Below, in pieces: positions 10,871 to 60,914 of a stretch of DNA of 64,000 nucleotides. How positions within the stretch are numbered: position 1 is the stretch's first letter; each line of letters begins with the position of its first letter. The translations under genes were made by a program, and so were the position numbers. This stretch comes from an uncultured Flavobacteriales bacterium (GTDB lineage Bacteria > Bacteroidota > Bacteroidia > Flavobacteriales > Flavobacteriaceae): the NCBI GenBank assembly GCA_913020155.1, contig CAJWBA010000005.1:1-64000 (forward strand), read 5' to 3'. A model generated the notes under the pieces. It saw nothing but the letters and a program-made list of their open reading frames with translations, did no database searches and was not told the origin of the DNA.

Positions 10871-12400
10871 CTAATACGATGCATTCAAAATGGACAAGCA
10901 AATTTTAATTCCTTGTCTTATATTTCCAATTCTAATGTTTTCATTAGGACTATGCTGATTGTTGTCCATGTTTACCATAGGAACAATTACCGTTGGCACT
11001 CTTAATTTATTGATCAGTGGAACAATTGGAACCGTACCTCCCATAAGTCTAATAACAACGGGATCTTTCCCAAAATCTTCTCTAATATGGTTCCGTATTT
11101 TTCTTCCAAAATCAGAATCTGGATTGGTTCTAAAAGAATTCACACTCAAAGTTCCAGTAAATTTCACAATTTTGAGATGGGTTTGTCTTTCTTCATCTGT
11201 TGGATCTCGATCAAGAACATAGAACCCTTGTCCCTCAATATGTGTTTTAATTTTCTGCAATTGACTAACACCCTCTGTTTCTGGAACCAGTCGAACATCA
11301 ATATTTGCAGTTGCATATTCTGGGATTACCGTCTTCAAACCTTTCCCTTTCCAAGAGGTTCCTATTTGTCTTACATTCAAAGAAGGATACTGTAAAGATT
11401 CTTGATAATTAGTCCCCACATTCTCCGAAGAATTAATCCCTAATTCATCATTCAATTCTGATGCATCATAAGGAACTGCTTCCAAAAGACTTGAAACTTC
11501 TGAAGTTATTTCAATACCCTTGTAGTAATCTTTTATCAAAACTCTTCCTTCTGGATCTTTCATGCTGGACAAAAGGTTTGCAAGTCTAAAAACTGGATTG
11601 GGTACATAATTTCCATAATGACCGCTGTGCTGGGGTAGTTTAGATCCAAAAGTAGTTATTGAACAAGAGGCAATTCCTCTACACCCAAAAGTAAGAGTGG
11701 GTTGGTTGGAATTATGAGAAGGTCCGTCCATCACAATAAAATAATCAGAAGCATAACGGTCTTGATATTGATCCAGTGACGATAAAAGTGCCTTAGACCC
11801 GTATTCCTCCTCTGGATCAAAGATGATTTTAAGGTTTATTTTAGGGGATTGGTTTTGATTTTGAAGTTCTTTGAGGGCTGCTAGAAACATTATAATTGGT
11901 GCTTTATCGTCAGCTGCTGCACGTCCAAAAATACGCCATTCATCGTCAATTGTGCCATCCAATTTACTCCAATCAATAACCTGCCAATCTCCATTTTGGC
12001 TCTGCTGTTTTAAAACAGGTTCAAAAGGGTCTTCTTGATTCCAAACATCAGGGTTGACTGGCTGTCCATCTATATGAAAATAAAACAAAACTGTTTTATT
12101 TTCAGGGTCAACTATTTTTTCTGCAATTAAAATAGGAAGGCTGCTTGTATCCAGTAATGAGGTTTTAAAATCTAAGCTCGCGTATTGCTTCGCTACCCAA
12201 TTGATGTTTTCAAGCATCAAATCCTTGTTTTTAGGTAAATTAGGAATACTTACAAGATCCTTATGCATCATTAGAGTATTCTTGATGTTTTTATTGATTT
12301 GGATATCCTCTTCTTTTTTCTGACCATTAATCATAGTTGATAAGAGAACAAAAAAAGCACTTAGAATTGTTTTGGAGAAGCTACACATCGTTATTGTCAT
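10871..12400 (-). CDS. Secreted M20-family metallopeptidase
   Basis: A 509-residue zinc peptidase of the ArgE/DapE/carnosinase (M20) family, exported by a signal peptide (hydrophobic about 11-24, ending MINGQ). The metal-binding set is visible: His109-x-Asp111 (FHIDGQP), Asp164/Asp165 (AAADDK), the catalytic Glu pair near 197-199 (DPEEEYGSK), Asp225 and the dimerisation-domain His in HSGHYGNYVPNP. The DGQPVNPDVW wording is typical of the Bacteroidota M20 dipeptidase group. Likely role: trimming small peptides in the periplasm or outside the cell. ATGs at 12400 and 12388 are both possible starts. It appears monocistronic; I found no clear promoter box. Confidence 0.82.
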   Translation of the reverse strand: MTITMCSFSKTILSAFFVLLSTMINGQKKEEDIQINKNIKNTLMMHKDLVSIPNLPKNKDLMLENINWVAKQYASLDFKTSLLDTSSLPILIAEKIVDPENKTVLFYFHIDGQPVNPDVWNQEDPFEPVLKQQSQNGDWQVIDWSKLDGTIDDEWRIFGRAAADDKAPIIMFLAALKELQNQNQSPKINLKIIFDPEEEYGSKALLSSLDQYQDRYASDYFIVMDGPSHNSNQPTLTFGCRGIASCSITTFGSKLPQHSGHYGNYVPNPVFRLANLLSSMKDPEGRVLIKDYYKGIEITSEVSSLLEAVPYDASELNDELGINSSENVGTNYQESLQYPSLNVRQIGTSWKGKGLKTVIPEYATANIDVRLVPETEGVSQLQKIKTHIEGQGFYVLDRDPTDEERQTHLKIVKFTGTLSVNSFRTNPDSDFGRKIRNHIREDFGKDPVVIRLMGGTVPIVPLINKLRVPTVIVPMVNMDNNQHSPNENIRIGNIRQGIKICLSILNASY

Positions 12401-23207: not shown

Positions 23208-24071
23208 TTATGCCTTCAGGGCTTCTGCTCCGCCAACTATTTCTAGTATTTCATTTGTTATTGATGCTTGACGCGCCTGGTTGTAGGTCAATTTTAATTG
23301 ATCTCTGAGGTCAGTAGCATTATCTGTTGCTTTGTGCATGGCGGTCATTCTGGCTCCATGCTCGCTTGCGAAAGAATCTCGTAATGCTTTAAACAATTGC
23401 ATTTTAATACTTTTAGGTAATAACTCGTCTACAATAGCTTCTTGGTTGGGTTCAAAAATATAATCGGTAGAAGTTTTAGTATTTTCGTTTTGAGTTGAAA
23501 TAATTGGTAATAAGGTTTCGGTTGTTGCTATTTGAGTCGCCGCATTTTTAAATCGGTTGTAAACAACTTCAATAAGGTCGAATTTTTTATCTGTAAAAGA
23601 TTTCATAAAACCTTCCGCTAATTCACTAGTATTAGAAAATGTCAATTGATCAAAAATATCGTTGTTATTTTCTTCTATTGAAAAAGATTTTTGGAGAATA
23701 TCATTTCCTTTTTTTCCAAGGGTGGTTAAACTAACATTTTTATTTGCGTAGGTTGTTTCTACTTTCTTGGTAACCTCTTTTATTACACTTGAATTAAAAC
23801 CACCACATAAACCACGATTAGATGTTATTGCTATGATTAGGACGTTTTGAACAGCTCTTTTCTCTGTGTATGGATTTTGAGTATTACCATCAATAGAACT
23901 GCTCAAGTTCTGAATCAATTCGGTTAGTTTATCTGAATATGGTCGCATGGCCATAATGGCATCTTGAGCTTGCTTGAGCTTTGCAGCGGATACCATTTTC
24001 ATTGCTGAAGTAATTTGCATGGTCGATGAAACCGATGCAATCCTATTCCGTATCTCTTTTAAATTAGCCAT
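23208..24071 (-). CDS. atpG: ATP synthase F1 subunit gamma
   Basis: A 287-residue gamma subunit, the rotor shaft of F1. The N-terminal helix (MANLKEIRNRIASVSST, MQITSAMKMVSAAKL) and the C-terminal helix (ARMTAMHKATDNATDL, NQARQASITNEILEIVGGA) that form the coiled-coil shaft are conserved, with ITSNRGLCGGFN in the globular part. Last gene of the run, 12 bases after atpA. No atpD or atpC follows, as expected for Bacteroidota, where beta and epsilon lie at a separate locus. Confidence 0.96.
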   Translation of the reverse strand: MANLKEIRNRIASVSSTMQITSAMKMVSAAKLKQAQDAIMAMRPYSDKLTELIQNLSSSIDGNTQNPYTEKRAVQNVLIIAITSNRGLCGGFNSSVIKEVTKKVETTYANKNVSLTTLGKKGNDILQKSFSIEENNNDIFDQLTFSNTSELAEGFMKSFTDKKFDLIEVVYNRFKNAATQIATTETLLPIISTQNENTKTSTDYIFEPNQEAIVDELLPKSIKMQLFKALRDSFASEHGARMTAMHKATDNATDLRDQLKLTYNQARQASITNEILEIVGGAEALKA

Positions 24072-24083
24072 ACTAATATTCGT

Positions 24084-25661
24084 TTATTCAAATTGAGCTG
24101 CTGTTTCTTTTGCAACACTGTTTAATGTGTCCAAAACTTCATCAGTTAATTTTCCTGCCTTAATTGTATCTAAAACACTTCTGTGCTTGCTGTTCAATGT
24201 TTCAATAAAGATTTTTTCAAAGGCCTTTACTTGATCAACGGGAACGCTTCTCAATAAATTTTTGGATCCTGCATAAATTATCGCCGTTTGATCTTCAACA
24301 GTGTAAGGGTCATTTTGAGCTTGCTTCAATATCTCAACATTACGACGTCCTTTTTCAATAACATTCAAAGTTACTGCATCAAGATCCGACCCAAATTTAG
24401 CAAATGCCTCAAGTTCACGGAACTGAGCCTGGTCTAATTTTAAAGTGCTCGATACTTTTTTCATTGATTTGATCTGAGCTGAACCACCTACACGTGATAC
24501 CGAGATACCTACGTTAATTGCGGGACGAACTCCTGAGTTAAACAAATCTGACTCCAAGAAAATCTGGCCATCTGTAATCGAAATTACATTGGTTGGAATG
24601 TATGCAGATACATCTCCTGCTTGGGTCTCAATAATTGGAAGTGCTGTTAGAGAACCTCCTCCTTTGATTTTATCTTTTAGTGAATCTGGAAGGTCATTCA
24701 TCCCTTTAGCAATATTATCGTCAGCAATAACTTTTGCTGCACGCTCCAATAAACGAGAGTGTAAATAAAATACATCTCCAGGATAAGCTTCACGTCCTGG
24801 TGGACGACGTAACAATAAAGATACCTCACGGTAAGCCACCGCTTGTTTGGACAAATCATCGTAAATAATCAAGGCTGGACGACCTGTATCTCTAAAATAC
24901 TCTCCAATTGCTGCTCCTGCGAAAGGGGCATAAACCTGCATTGGTGCTGGATCAGATGCGTTTGCTGCAACAATTGTTGTATAAGCCAATGCGCCTTTAT
25001 CTTCTAATACTTTCGCAATCCCTGCTACTGTTGAGGCTTTTTGACCAATAGCAACATAGATACAATAAACGGGTTCACCAGCATCGTAAAATTCTTTTTG
25101 ATTCAAAATGGTGTCAATACAAACTGTTGTTTTCCCAGTTTGACGGTCACCAATAACTAATTCACGTTGCCCTCTACCAACTGGAATCATTGCGTCAATA
25201 GACTTGATTCCCGTTTGCATGGGTTCGTTTACAGGCTGACGATAAATAACCCCTGGTGCTTTTCGCTCTAAAGGCATTTCAAACAATTCTCCTTCTAAAG
25301 ATCCTTTTCCGTCAATTGGGTTTCCAAGAGTGTCAACTACACGACCTGATATCCCGTCTCCTATTTTGATAGAAGCAATACGCTCAGTGCGTTTTACGGT
25401 ATCTCCTTCAGAAATTTCTTTTGAAGGGCCCAAAAGTACCACTCCAACATTATCTTCTTCTAAATTCAAAACCATTCCTTCAAGTCCAGAATCAAATCGA
25501 ACTAATTCTCCGTATTGAACATTAGAAAGTCCGTAAACACGAGCGATTCCGTCTCCTACTTGAAGAACTGTTCCTACTTCGTCAAGTGAAGCTAATGATT
25601 CAAATCCTGAGATTTGGTCTTTTAAAATTGCTGAAACTTCAGCGGGTTTAATTGCTGCCAT
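24084..25661 (-). CDS. atpA: ATP synthase F1 subunit alpha
   Basis: A 525-residue alpha subunit forming the non-catalytic nucleotide sites of F1. The P-loop GDRQTGKT is at 171-178, the [19 protein letters not shown] Walker B region follows, and the arginine-finger segment ([12 protein letters not shown]) is intact. Length is slightly long, as is usual in Bacteroidota. It sits 16 bases downstream of atpH. Confidence 0.97.
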
Positions 25662-25677
25662 AGTATTTATTTAAACT

Positions 25678-26223
25678 CTATAAATTGGTTTTTGTCAATT
25701 GTCTTTTAAGTGTATCTAATTGATTGACTACACTTGCATTGTATTGTAAATCTCCTATTCGTAAAATAAATCCCCCTATTATGGAAGGATCTACAACATT
25801 AGTGAGTATTAAAGTTGCTGAAGATAGTTCTTTAGCTTTATTGAGTATTGTTTTTTCAAGGGCTTTTGACAAAGGGACTACAGTGGTTACAATCGCTTTT
25901 TGTTTGCCTTGCTGTATTTGGTGAAGGGCAATAAATTGCTCAGCAACCTGATCAAATAAATTGATTCGGTTGTTGGCTGCTAGTGTGTTTACTAAGTTTT
26001 TACTCCCCTCTGATAAAGAACTAAAAACCTTAAAAACCGTTTCTACTTTTGTTTCTGTTGAAAGTATTGGGTTGTCCAAAAAATCAACTAAGTTTTGGTT
26101 TGTAGAACAAGCATCGATAACATTTACCATATCTTGATCAATAGCAGAGGCATTTCCCTGATCTATTGAAAGACTTAGAGTAGCTTTAGCGTAGCGAAAT
26201 GCGGCACGGTTATTTTTCATCAA
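25678..26223 (-). CDS. atpH: ATP synthase F1 subunit delta
   Basis: A 181-residue delta (OSCP) subunit that ties the alpha3beta3 head to the b stalk. The N-terminal helical bundle (RAAFRYAKATLSLS) and C-terminal motif DPSIIGGFILRIGDLQYNASV are characteristic. The gene lies one base after atpF, so translation is probably coupled. Confidence 0.92.
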   Translation of the reverse strand: MMKNNRAAFRYAKATLSLSIDQGNASAIDQDMVNVIDACSTNQNLVDFLDNPILSTETKVETVFKVFSSLSEGSKNLVNTLAANNRINLFDQVAEQFIALHQIQQGKQKAIVTTVVPLSKALEKTILNKAKELSSATLILTNVVDPSIIGGFILRIGDLQYNASVVNQLDTLKRQLTKTNL

Positions 26224-26224
26224 T

Positions 26225-26725
26225 TTATTTTACGGCAATCTCTTTTACCAATTCTTCTACCAATTTTTCTTGAGCTTCTTTATCCTTCAATTCAGTTTGT
26301 AAAACTTTTTCCGCAATATCAACCGAAAGTTGTGCCACTTGATTTTTTAAGTCATTTATTGCCGCTTTCTTTTCGTTTTGAATCATTTCCTGAGCTTGAG
26401 CAGTAATTTTATCAGCATCTACTTTTGCATCTGCCTTTGCTTGATTGATCATCTGAATACTCGCTTTTTTTGCTTCAGATAAAAGAGCATCTCTTTCAGC
26501 ACGAGCCTCTTTCAAGATACGTTTATTGTCGGCCTGAACAACTTGCATTTCATCACGAGCTTTTTGAGCTGCACTCAACGAGTCTTTTATCGATGTTTCT
26601 CTTTCGTTAACAGCATCTAAAATGGGCTTCCAAGCAAATTTTTTGAGTAACAACAAAAGAGCAACAAACAATAGTAATTGCCAAAAAAAAAGCCCTAATG
26701 AAAACTCGCTTAATAATTTTTCCAT
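26225..26725 (-). CDS. atpF: ATP synthase Fo subunit b
   Basis: A 166-residue peripheral-stalk subunit. One membrane helix (about 10-29, GLFFWQLLLFVALLLLLKKF) is followed by a long charged helix rich in Ala, Lys, Glu and Gln (about 35-150) that forms the stator dimer. It is separated from atpE by 77 bases containing a strong hairpin, so its mRNA level may be lower than that of atpE. Confidence 0.93.
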   Translation of the reverse strand: MEKLLSEFSLGLFFWQLLLFVALLLLLKKFAWKPILDAVNERETSIKDSLSAAQKARDEMQVVQADNKRILKEARAERDALLSEAKKASIQMINQAKADAKVDADKITAQAQEMIQNEKKAAINDLKNQVAQLSVDIAEKVLQTELKDKEAQEKLVEELVKEIAVK

Positions 26726-26762
26726 TCTATTTATTTATAGTTTAATTTTTTTTAATTTAAGA

Positions 26763-26793
26763 ATAAAGCTGCAACCAACCGTTGCAGCTTTAT
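26763..26793 (-). promoter_or_regulatory. Strong hairpin between atpE and atpF
   Basis: Thirteen base pairs (26763-26775 with 26781-26793, core AAAGCTGCAAC/GTTGCAGCTTT) with a five-base loop, starting about ten bases after the atpE stop. The following minus-strand sequence TTATTCTTAAATT is only a weak U-tract. It could attenuate read-through or protect the upstream atpE mRNA, raising subunit c relative to b, delta and alpha. Confidence 0.7.
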
Positions 26794-26802
26794 CAATTTG
26801 CT

Positions 26803-26997
26803 TTAGCTTACCGCAAAAAGTGCAGCAAAACCAATACCTTCGATCAATGCAGCGGCGATTAACATCGCTGTTTGAATCTTTCCGTAAGCTTCAGGTTGAC
26901 GTGCAATTGCATCCATTGCAGAGCCACCAATTCTCCCGATACCGATACCGACGCCGATAACAACTAAACCTGCACCTACCATTACTGGAATTTCCAT
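26803..26997 (-). CDS. atpE: ATP synthase Fo subunit c
   Basis: A 64-residue two-helix hairpin forming the rotor ring. Helix 1 (about 5-28) is glycine-rich (GAGLVVIGVGIGIGRIGG), the polar loop is ARQPE (32-36) and helix 2 carries the ion-binding Glu53 in AALIEGIGFAAL. The Na-type signature (Gln in helix 1 with Glu-Ser/Thr in helix 2) is absent, so protons are expected. I chose the ATG at 26997 (MEIPVMVGAG); the frame is open to 27021, adding eight residues. Followed by a strong hairpin. Confidence 0.93.
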   Translation of the reverse strand: MEIPVMVGAGLVVIGVGIGIGRIGGSAMDAIARQPEAYGKIQTAMLIAAALIEGIGFAALFAVS

Positions 26998-27037
26998 AAT
27001 TGTAAATATTAAATTAAACACTCATTAAATGAAACGC

Positions 27038-28180
27038 TTAATGCGCTTCAATTTCATCGTGATGCTCATGCTCTTCTGATGCAAAACCAAAATACAGCGC
27101 TGATAACATCGTAAAAATATATGCTTGTAGCAATGCTACTAAAACTTCAATTAATGAAATTGCAAAAGCAAGTCCAAATGAAAGTGGACTTCCTAACCAA
27201 CTCTTAAATATAAACATCAGCCCAATCAAACTCATCAAGACAATATGCCCTGCTTGCATGTTTGCATACAAACGAATTAAAAGAGAAAAGGGTTTGATGA
27301 AGATTCCCAAAACTTCTATTGGAATTAAAATGATGTACAATGGGATTTTAGCATACCACTTCAATGTTGATCCCAAAGGGTCAAATATATGTAACCAATA
27401 ATCTTTGGTCCCAGTAAAATTGGTCAACAAGAAAGTTAGTAACGCTAAACAGAATGTAACTGCAATATTTCCCGTTACATTAATCCCTAAAGGAGTAAGC
27501 CCTAAGATATTCAAAAACCAAACAAAGAAAAATACTGTAAGTAAAAAGCTCATGTATTTTTTGTAATGCTTTTCTCCAATGTTGGGAATGGCAATATCAT
27601 CTCTAATGTAAAGTACAATGGGCTCAAAAAAGCGTCCAGCTCCAGAGGCAATTCCACTATTTTTTGAATAAGAATCCGCAAGGTTTTTAAACAAAAAAAA
27701 CATCATAAATACAGTAAACATTATGCTAACAACACCTTTGGTAATCGAAAAATCCAACGGAGCAAAATTTGTTGCATGATGGTCTTCATCGTAAGTGATG
27801 GTTCCCGCTTGATCTGTTTTGTAAATTTTGTTGTGATTGATGGTATAAAAATTGCCGTCAGCTTCTGCAACAGTTTCTCCGTGATGAAATTTAGAAGATA
27901 AAAAAACTTTAAACCCGTTATCCCATAAAATTATTGGAAGGGGAACACCAATATAAACATGAGATCCATCGTCATTGGTGTATGAAAACAAACTGAAATC
28001 ATAAGAATCCTGCAGGTGATGCATGATGTAATCTTTGATCTCCTTTTTTTGAGTTTCTTTGGCAGAAAGATTTTCAGGGGGTTGTTGTTTTTCTTTGGCA
28101 GATACTACTCCCGATAAAAGTAATATTAATAAAAACACTGTTTTTTTCTTAAGTAAAATAAACCTGGTGGATCCGCTCAT
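27038..28180 (-). CDS. atpB: ATP synthase Fo subunit a
   Basis: A 380-residue subunit a, the proton channel half of Fo. Bacteroidota versions are long: here a signal-like N-terminus (about 9-28) and a roughly 115-residue extramembrane region precede the conserved helices. The channel motifs are present: the essential Arg in LLIRLYANMQAGHIVL and the last helix ISLIEVLVALLQAYIFTMLSALYF. The tail is His/Glu-rich (EEHEHHDEIEAH). It follows the AtpI-like gene by 60 bases and precedes atpE by 40. Confidence 0.95.
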   Translation of the reverse strand: MSGSTRFILLKKKTVFLLILLLSGVVSAKEKQQPPENLSAKETQKKEIKDYIMHHLQDSYDFSLFSYTNDDGSHVYIGVPLPIILWDNGFKVFLSSKFHHGETVAEADGNFYTINHNKIYKTDQAGTITYDEDHHATNFAPLDFSITKGVVSIMFTVFMMFFLFKNLADSYSKNSGIASGAGRFFEPIVLYIRDDIAIPNIGEKHYKKYMSFLLTVFFFVWFLNILGLTPLGINVTGNIAVTFCLALLTFLLTNFTGTKDYWLHIFDPLGSTLKWYAKIPLYIILIPIEVLGIFIKPFSLLIRLYANMQAGHIVLMSLIGLMFIFKSWLGSPLSFGLAFAISLIEVLVALLQAYIFTMLSALYFGFASEEHEHHDEIEAH

Positions 28181-60810: not shown

Positions 60811-60881
60811 GGCATCGTGGCCGAGTGGCTAGGCAGAGCTCTGCAAAAGCTTGTACAGCGGTTCGAATCCGCTCGATGCCT
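60811..60881 (+). tRNA. tRNA-Cys (GCA)
   Basis: A complete cloverleaf. The acceptor stem GGCATCG pairs with CGATGCC (60874-60880), the D arm is GCC/GGC, the anticodon stem GAGCT/AGCTT encloses loop CTGCAAA with anticodon GCA, and the T arm is GCGG-TTCGAAT-CCGC. The discriminator base is T, as required for cysteine. CCA is not encoded. A terminator follows immediately. Confidence 0.95.
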
Positions 60882-60882
60882 C

Positions 60883-60914
60883 AAAAACCCGTGTTTTAAA
60901 TACGGGTTTTTTTT
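60883..60914 (+). terminator. Terminator after tRNA-Cys
   Basis: AAAAACCCGT (60883-60892) pairs with ACGGGTTTTT (60902-60911) around a nine-base loop and runs into a T-tract. It ends the folB-tRNA unit. Confidence 0.8.

Follow-up and report, generated by a model that had tools for sequence, protein, structure and literature searches.

It has long been asked how one and the same ATP synthase operon can yield many c subunits but one a subunit, and most of the answers come from E. coli; to our knowledge post-transcriptional control is little known in the large bacterial group studied here. The window (the whole stretch of DNA analysed, 64 kb) raises this question at one locus: its atp operon, which runs atpB, atpE, atpF, atpH, atpA, atpG on the minus strand, contains a long hairpin at the boundary between the genes for subunits c and b. 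We asked whether this is an ordinary intercistronic hairpin or an element under selection, and what it may do. The features concerned are the following.

27038-28180, minus strand: atpB, subunit a, upstream of atpE (ORF; PF00119, E 4e-51)
26803-26997, minus strand: atpE, F-ATPase subunit c (ORF; PF00137, E 3.3e-11; ATG at 26997, while an in-frame GTG at 27021 also opens the ORF)
26763-26793, minus strand: intercistronic hairpin with a perfect 13-bp stem (14 bp if the G-U pair 26794/26762 is counted) and a 5-nt loop (fold, inverted-repeat scan, conservation in relatives)
26776-26780, minus strand: GGUUG pentaloop, the core of the element, GNUUG in relatives (loop counts in relatives)
26774-26782, minus strand: conserved apex ACGGUUGGU, the loop with two closing pairs (alignment, in which the seven central letters are fixed by sequence selection)
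26726-26761, minus strand: A/U-rich, mostly unpaired stretch from the hairpin to atpF, a candidate site of endonuclease cleavage and the putative atpF ribosome site (sequence, fold)
26225-26725, minus strand: atpF, subunit b (ORF; PF00430, E 4e-29)
25678-26223, minus strand: atpH (named from position and sequence)
24084-25661, minus strand: atpA, downstream in the same operon (ORF; Pfam)
23208-24071, minus strand: atpG (named from position and sequence)

Read on the mRNA strand, from 26793 to 26763, the hairpin is AUAAAGCUGCAAC-GGUUG-GUUGCAGCUUUAU. Its 13-nt arms are 100% complementary with 5 nt between them, exactly the perfect stem and five-base loop of the original prediction, and the stem begins 9 nt after the atpE stop codon (26803-26805), where about ten had been estimated. 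The spacer, 77 nt from stop to start, folded at -21.2 kcal/mol, as compared to -8.96 ± 2.63 kcal/mol in 200 shuffles (z -4.65), one of which folded as well as the native sequence. By the ORF list the remaining spacers between atp genes are at most 40 nt long, and these values fit the claim that the hairpin is the strongest intercistronic structure of the operon. An inverted-repeat scan of the window, allowing up to 60 nt between arms, placed two perfect 13-bp stems among the 25 repeats listed of the 31 found: the atpE-atpF hairpin and an A/T-rich repeat at 12075-12104, which has a 4-nt loop and just two G-C pairs.

Two roles had been suggested for the hairpin, stabilisation of the upstream mRNA or partial termination, along with a weak U-tract. 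The tract is weak indeed: the tail 3′ of the stem reads UCUUAAAUU, and counted from the 13-bp stem the downstream sequence UCUUAAAUUAAAAAAAAU makes a poor U-tract. A scan with a terminator consensus flagged the site as terminator-like on the opposite strand only, with no listing on the mRNA strand, and the G+C-rich stem followed by a U run that characterises intrinsic terminators was not found at the window site. The weak tract favours stabilisation over full termination, and this part of the suggestion stood, while neither role explains the kept pentaloop and the flipped closing pair described below. It seems to us improbable that transcription ends here in part, at an intrinsic terminator in the atpE-atpF spacer which a fraction of the polymerases would pass. 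In many spacers the 3′ foot does include a few U (columns 39 and 40 of the alignment are U in 66 and 61 of 69 sequences), but the longest U run near the foot has a median of 4 over 167 hairpins with a GNUUG loop versus 6 in 19 non-atpE controls, a rough comparison since several control windows were misdrawn. Runs of 6-7 U occur in 12 of the 167. Moreover, termination needs no fixed loop.

To follow the hairpin in relatives we searched for atpE in 19 genomes of the genus (match in 17) and in 299 of the family (match in 290), and obtained 45 atpE loci (L002-L046, the window's own included), of which 44 were readable past the stop codon and one, L018, ended at a contig edge. A hairpin with the letters CGGTTGG lay directly after atpE in 43 of the 44, the exception being L038; some members of the window's genus have an apex variant, CGC-GGUUG-GCG, with an adjacent bulge. 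As an independent sample we used a public set chosen by similarity of the AtpE protein alone. Among its 80 loci, one of which ended at a contig edge, 76 of the 79 readable ones carried a GNUUG hairpin directly after atpE (GGUUG in 74, GAUUG in 2) and three carried none. The organisms in this set include Flavobacterium, Flagellimonas, Arenibacter, Maribacter, Psychroserpens, Winogradskyella, Aquimarina, Myroides, Chryseobacterium and uncultured Flavobacteriaceae.

A first covariance model built from 32 sequences (R1) matched in 253 of the 299 family genomes at E <= 0.1, and in 223 of the 248 good ones, with part of the matches checked to lie at atpE. When 40 of the weaker matches were fetched, 39 were located directly after atpE and one was a terminator-like hairpin. 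Twenty genomes missed by R1 were also read: five of them still had the GNUUG hairpin (four GGUUG, one GUUUG) and 15 lacked it, the latter having genomes of 1.3-2.7 million bases and spacers of 15-74 nt. The window's genome, of 1.7 million bases at 80% completeness, retains the element. Overall, the element is dispensable in its own family, as 19 of 128 distinct spacers lack GNUUG, although 15 of these 19 came from the 20 genomes fetched as model misses. Among the small-genome members without GNUUG (L118, L119 and L131, and the short-spacer loci L120-L122, L124, L125, L128, L132, L134 and L136), some have an unrelated hairpin and others a spacer of 15-52 nt.

The stem was analysed in three successive alignments, A1-A3, whose sequences were picked by the letters CGGTTGG, so that loop invariance within them is by construction. 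Between A1 (41 sequences) and A2 (32) we removed eight sequences that are bulged next to the apex, and L007 as a near-duplicate; from A2 to A3 four near-duplicates were removed (L004, L029, L033 and L039), and L123 and L137 were excluded from A3 for weak apical pairing. Compensatory changes in relatives had been named beforehand as a check on the stem, and they were found. In 69 distinct sequences 91.0% of the cells pair, and both sides have changed in 15 of the 16 pairs; the covariation score is 0.703, compared with 0.215 ± 0.013 in shuffles and at most 0.186 when partners were slid by 1-3 columns, the sliding being the one control for relatedness of the sequences. The first round, with 32 sequences, had given both-side changes in 13 of 16 pairs and a score of 0.599 versus 0.248 in shuffles and at most 0.217 when slid. 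Columns distant from the apex are near free variation, with entropies of about 1.5-1.9 bits, and the apex is nearly fixed, its central seven letters by selection of the sequences. Over the inner 11 pairs read on the mRNA strand, G-U pairs outnumber A-C mismatches by 45 to 9, so it is in the mRNA, and not in the DNA or in an antisense RNA, that the structure is maintained. These comparisons show a hairpin under selection at the RNA level, in the atp transcript, with the letters of its stem free to change. The hairpin is neither an ordinary one nor an artefact.

We then examined how far beyond the family the element extends. A second covariance model, from 69 sequences (R2), matched at E <= 0.01 in 83 of the 196 genomes scanned for the order and 65 of the 395 scanned for the phylum, both sets including family members. 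The new loci from these scans (L158-L193) were at atpE in 35 of 36 cases, while of 40 weaker R2 matches that were fetched, 23 were at atpE and 17 elsewhere. In 60 genomes we then read the spacers themselves. Of these genomes 54 belong to other families, and none had a model match known at atpE; a GNUUG hairpin was present in 27 and absent from 33. Pooling gave 216 distinct spacers, a mixture of atpE-similarity loci, model matches and model misses: 167 have a hairpin with a GNUUG pentaloop (GGUUG 155, GAUUG 10, GUUUG 2), 34 another hairpin of at least 7 pairs, 11 none, and 4 are shorter than 12 nt. Counted by family label, GNUUG occurs in 15 of 31 families. The order accounts for 12 of its 16 families, the rest of the class for 3 of 8, and the seven families outside the class (seven genomes, one per family) for none. 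The class in this search is that of GTDB (Bacteroidia), wider than NCBI's Flavobacteriia. The geometry is regular, with medians of 10 nt from stop to stem, 16 bp of stem and 35 nt to the atpF start. The place directly after atpE is kept in relatives. Neither this wide conservation nor the constancy of the loop was part of the original prediction.

One family (f18) has a version of its own, a GC-closed ACAGG, AAAGG or GAAGG loop in 7 of 8 spacers, which suggests that a hairpin at atpE-atpF outlives the GGUUG-type loop. In the seven loci (L250, L258, L259, L261, L262, L289 and L291) the loop sits on a short GC-closed helix above an internal loop. In another family (f22) the atpE-atpF hairpins of L246, L278, L279 and L280 carry four different five-base loops, AAUGG, ACUUG, GUUAG and GCUAG.

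The pentaloop is constant also in the counts that were not selected by letters, those of the 216 spacers and the 79 public loci, and it stays so when the pairs beneath it change. Most hairpins of families f8, f9, f11 and f19 close the loop with G-C, not C-G, and the loop is GGUUG (once GAUUG, in f19); in f5 the second pair is G-C, not A-U, in 11 of 15 spacers, and the loop is again GGUUG. Elsewhere in these genomes the loop is rare. In 400 kb of a relative (G218) we counted 451 hairpins with stems of 8 bp or more, of which a single one, at the atpE site, has the GGUUG loop, and the same holds for one of 15 hairpins in the window; the idea of a generic stable loop was rejected on the G218 count. 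A model scan of the window's own genome gave one clear sense match (E 1.1e-11); the two further rows were the same site read on the other strand (E 0.02) and a weak match (E 2.7), and in 25 carrier genomes the top match was always the atpE element.

For a second site or regulon, we surveyed the 48 secondary matches in these 25 genomes and read 20 regions covering the best ones. A GGUUG loop was found in two. One, 3′ of a transaldolase gene, reads GGUUG only on the strand opposite to the gene. The other (L375:501-543, minus strand) is a sense-strand hairpin flanked by an ftsH-like (Peptidase_M41) gene on one side and a LUD-domain gene on the other; it did not recur in five other genomes of that genus, and the one other second match there (L395) has a different loop. 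Both were treated as chance or local occurrences, and a second conserved site was rejected among the best of the 48 matches. The 19 model matches away from atpE (L117, L192 and the 17 of the 40 fetched) resemble ordinary terminators and have other loops. In the genomes sampled, the element is thus essentially confined to the atpE site.

Two kinds of constraint were therefore observed, on pairing in the stem and on letters in the loop, and the GNUUG loop appears to be selected as a sequence while the stem changes. That these five letters persist through turnover of the stem and flips of the closing pair makes recognition of the loop likely. A stabiliser of the mRNA that is blind to sequence, in which the strength of the stem alone matters and GNUUG is an inherited or an especially stable loop, would account for a strong stem with a weak U-tract in the right place, and also for the other loops of some lineages, such as those in 7 of 8 f18 spacers and the four in the four f22 spacers. 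It does not readily account for a stem that is almost wholly turned over beneath a constant loop, for a closing pair that flips below the kept loop, or for the many loops found on other hairpins of a carrier genome, and we consider it unlikely, if worth keeping in mind.

The loop could also be kept by a kissing interaction or pseudoknot, its partner being a second RNA or the coding part of atpE. One such partner would be CAACC, the complement of GGUUG, at the Gln-Pro codons of the RQP motif. Many atpE genes do have it there as CAA-CC, but in carriers the Gln codon is often CAG (22 CGTCAGCCA and 15 CGTCAGCCT among 134), and GAUUG and GUUUG loops occur without matching codon changes. Following the codon comparison in 134 sequences, kissing with the RQP codons was rejected as a conserved pairing, and pairing of the loop in general seems to us very improbable.

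We searched for earlier records of the element. At gathering score a tRNA was the only Rfam match in the window, with none in atpE-atpF, and ten relatives (E up to 10) gave nothing near gathering score; sub-threshold overlaps were ohsC at L042 (26.7 of 50) and, both on the other strand of L045, Spy1186876 (27.3 of 208) and mir-26 (20.1 of 57). Searches of an open full-text library listed no paper that describes it. Weinberg 2010 (PMC2864571) uses neither atpC nor ATP synthase as a term in its main text, atp is absent from the main text of a human-microbiome RNA survey (PMC8040213), and a Flavobacterium transcriptome study names structured 5′ elements and Flavo-1, with nothing on atpE in the portion available to us (PMC9723704). 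From the main text of Weinberg 2010, the L17 downstream element (RF01708) is likewise a conserved structured RNA downstream of a gene, but it belongs to ribosomal protein L17 of Lactobacillales and Listeria, whereas the present element has no Rfam match (PMC2864571). Flavo-1 (RF01705) and GUCCY-hairpin are, by the same text, computationally found motifs that include Bacteroidetes; GUCCY-hairpin, which has no Rfam number in the table there, is set apart from the element by its name alone, a misfit to GGUUG. This is apparently an unrecorded, deeply conserved RNA element of the ATP synthase operon.

As to function, the nearest parallel is with the intercistronic hairpins of the malE-malF type, which in E. 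coli stabilise the upstream gene without a terminator U-tract, as given in the part of Dar and Sorek 2018 that we consulted (PMC5927463). On that account the likeness is in a strong hairpin just 3′ of a gene needed in excess, within an operon, and perhaps in the want of a proper U-tract, and the stabilised tatA segment of E. coli corresponds to a ring-forming subunit needed in excess (PMC5927463). A stable hairpin at the 3′ boundary of such a gene is also what we find at atpE. The malE-malF type is there described by position and stability, unlike the kept loop and covarying stem found here in many genera at one operon (PMC5927463). A second parallel concerns the same enzyme. According to the passages seen of PMC6474325, RNA-binding proteins with sequence specificity delimit the c-subunit transcript in chloroplasts, and the RNA ends around the subunit-c gene (atpH/atpF boundaries) are protected by their binding; plants use PPR proteins, PPR10 at atpI-atpH and BFA2 at atpF-atpA, in contrast to the hairpin loop found here where the c gene gives way to the b gene.

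We favour, at close to an even chance, a cis-acting RNA element that marks the atpB-atpE segment at its 3′ end and shields it there, and whose loop is read by a putative factor. The barrier we infer because the layout matches that of intercistronic decay barriers, and the loop reader because the loop is kept. The transcript would be cleaved in the A/U-rich stretch before atpF, the hairpin would then stop 3′-to-5′ exonucleases, and the atpB-atpE segment would outlive the atpFHAG segment, so that the c subunit, present in many copies per enzyme, could be made in excess. The kept loop may serve for recognition by a protein, or with less likelihood by an RNA, through which the boundary is reinforced or controlled. 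Several points speak against this proposal. A plain exonuclease block needs no fixed loop; no binding partner was found, and RRM proteins, the class tested, are absent from 21 of 26 carriers; and GNUUG hairpins are lacking from 19 of 128 family spacers, from 33 of the 60 genomes read directly and from the seven genomes outside the class. By analogy, a role in c-subunit stoichiometry is plausible. A compact, deeply conserved RNA element sits exactly at the boundary of the c and b genes, and its loop would be a handle for finding the binding factor and for testing operon stoichiometry by point mutations.

The kept loop on a covarying stem, as seen in protein-binding cis-regulatory RNAs such as ribosomal-protein leaders, points to another possibility, a feedback or assembly-linked site at which an ATP synthase subunit or assembly factor binds GNUUG and controls how the cistrons on either side are translated or degraded. 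With one site per genome, this is the expected look of a single-target RNA-protein pair, and RRM proteins are excluded as a general binder, but no binder was found and nothing here links a subunit to RNA; we rate the possibility as rather remote. More specific, and doubtful to a slightly greater degree, is the proposal that across much of Flavobacteriales and parts of the class one such pair persists, in which an ATP synthase subunit or assembly factor reads GNUUG and feeds back on subunit balance. If true, it would be a feedback loop for the rotary ATP synthase resembling those of ribosomal-protein leaders.

RRM proteins (PF00076), RNA binders of a class established for this phylum (PMC11697453), were found in 5 of 26 carriers and were absent from 21, as from all 16 non-carriers tested, and with 5 of 26 carriers encoding one they were rejected as a general loop binder. 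RbpB of Bacteroides is a well-studied general RNA-binding protein of the same phylum and, as far as the accessible part of PMC11697453 describes it, prefers single-stranded AU-rich sites, unlike the hairpin loop here. Elsewhere in the window, at 60811-60911, a tRNA-Cys is directly followed by a terminator-like 14-nt inverted repeat with 1 nt between its arms.
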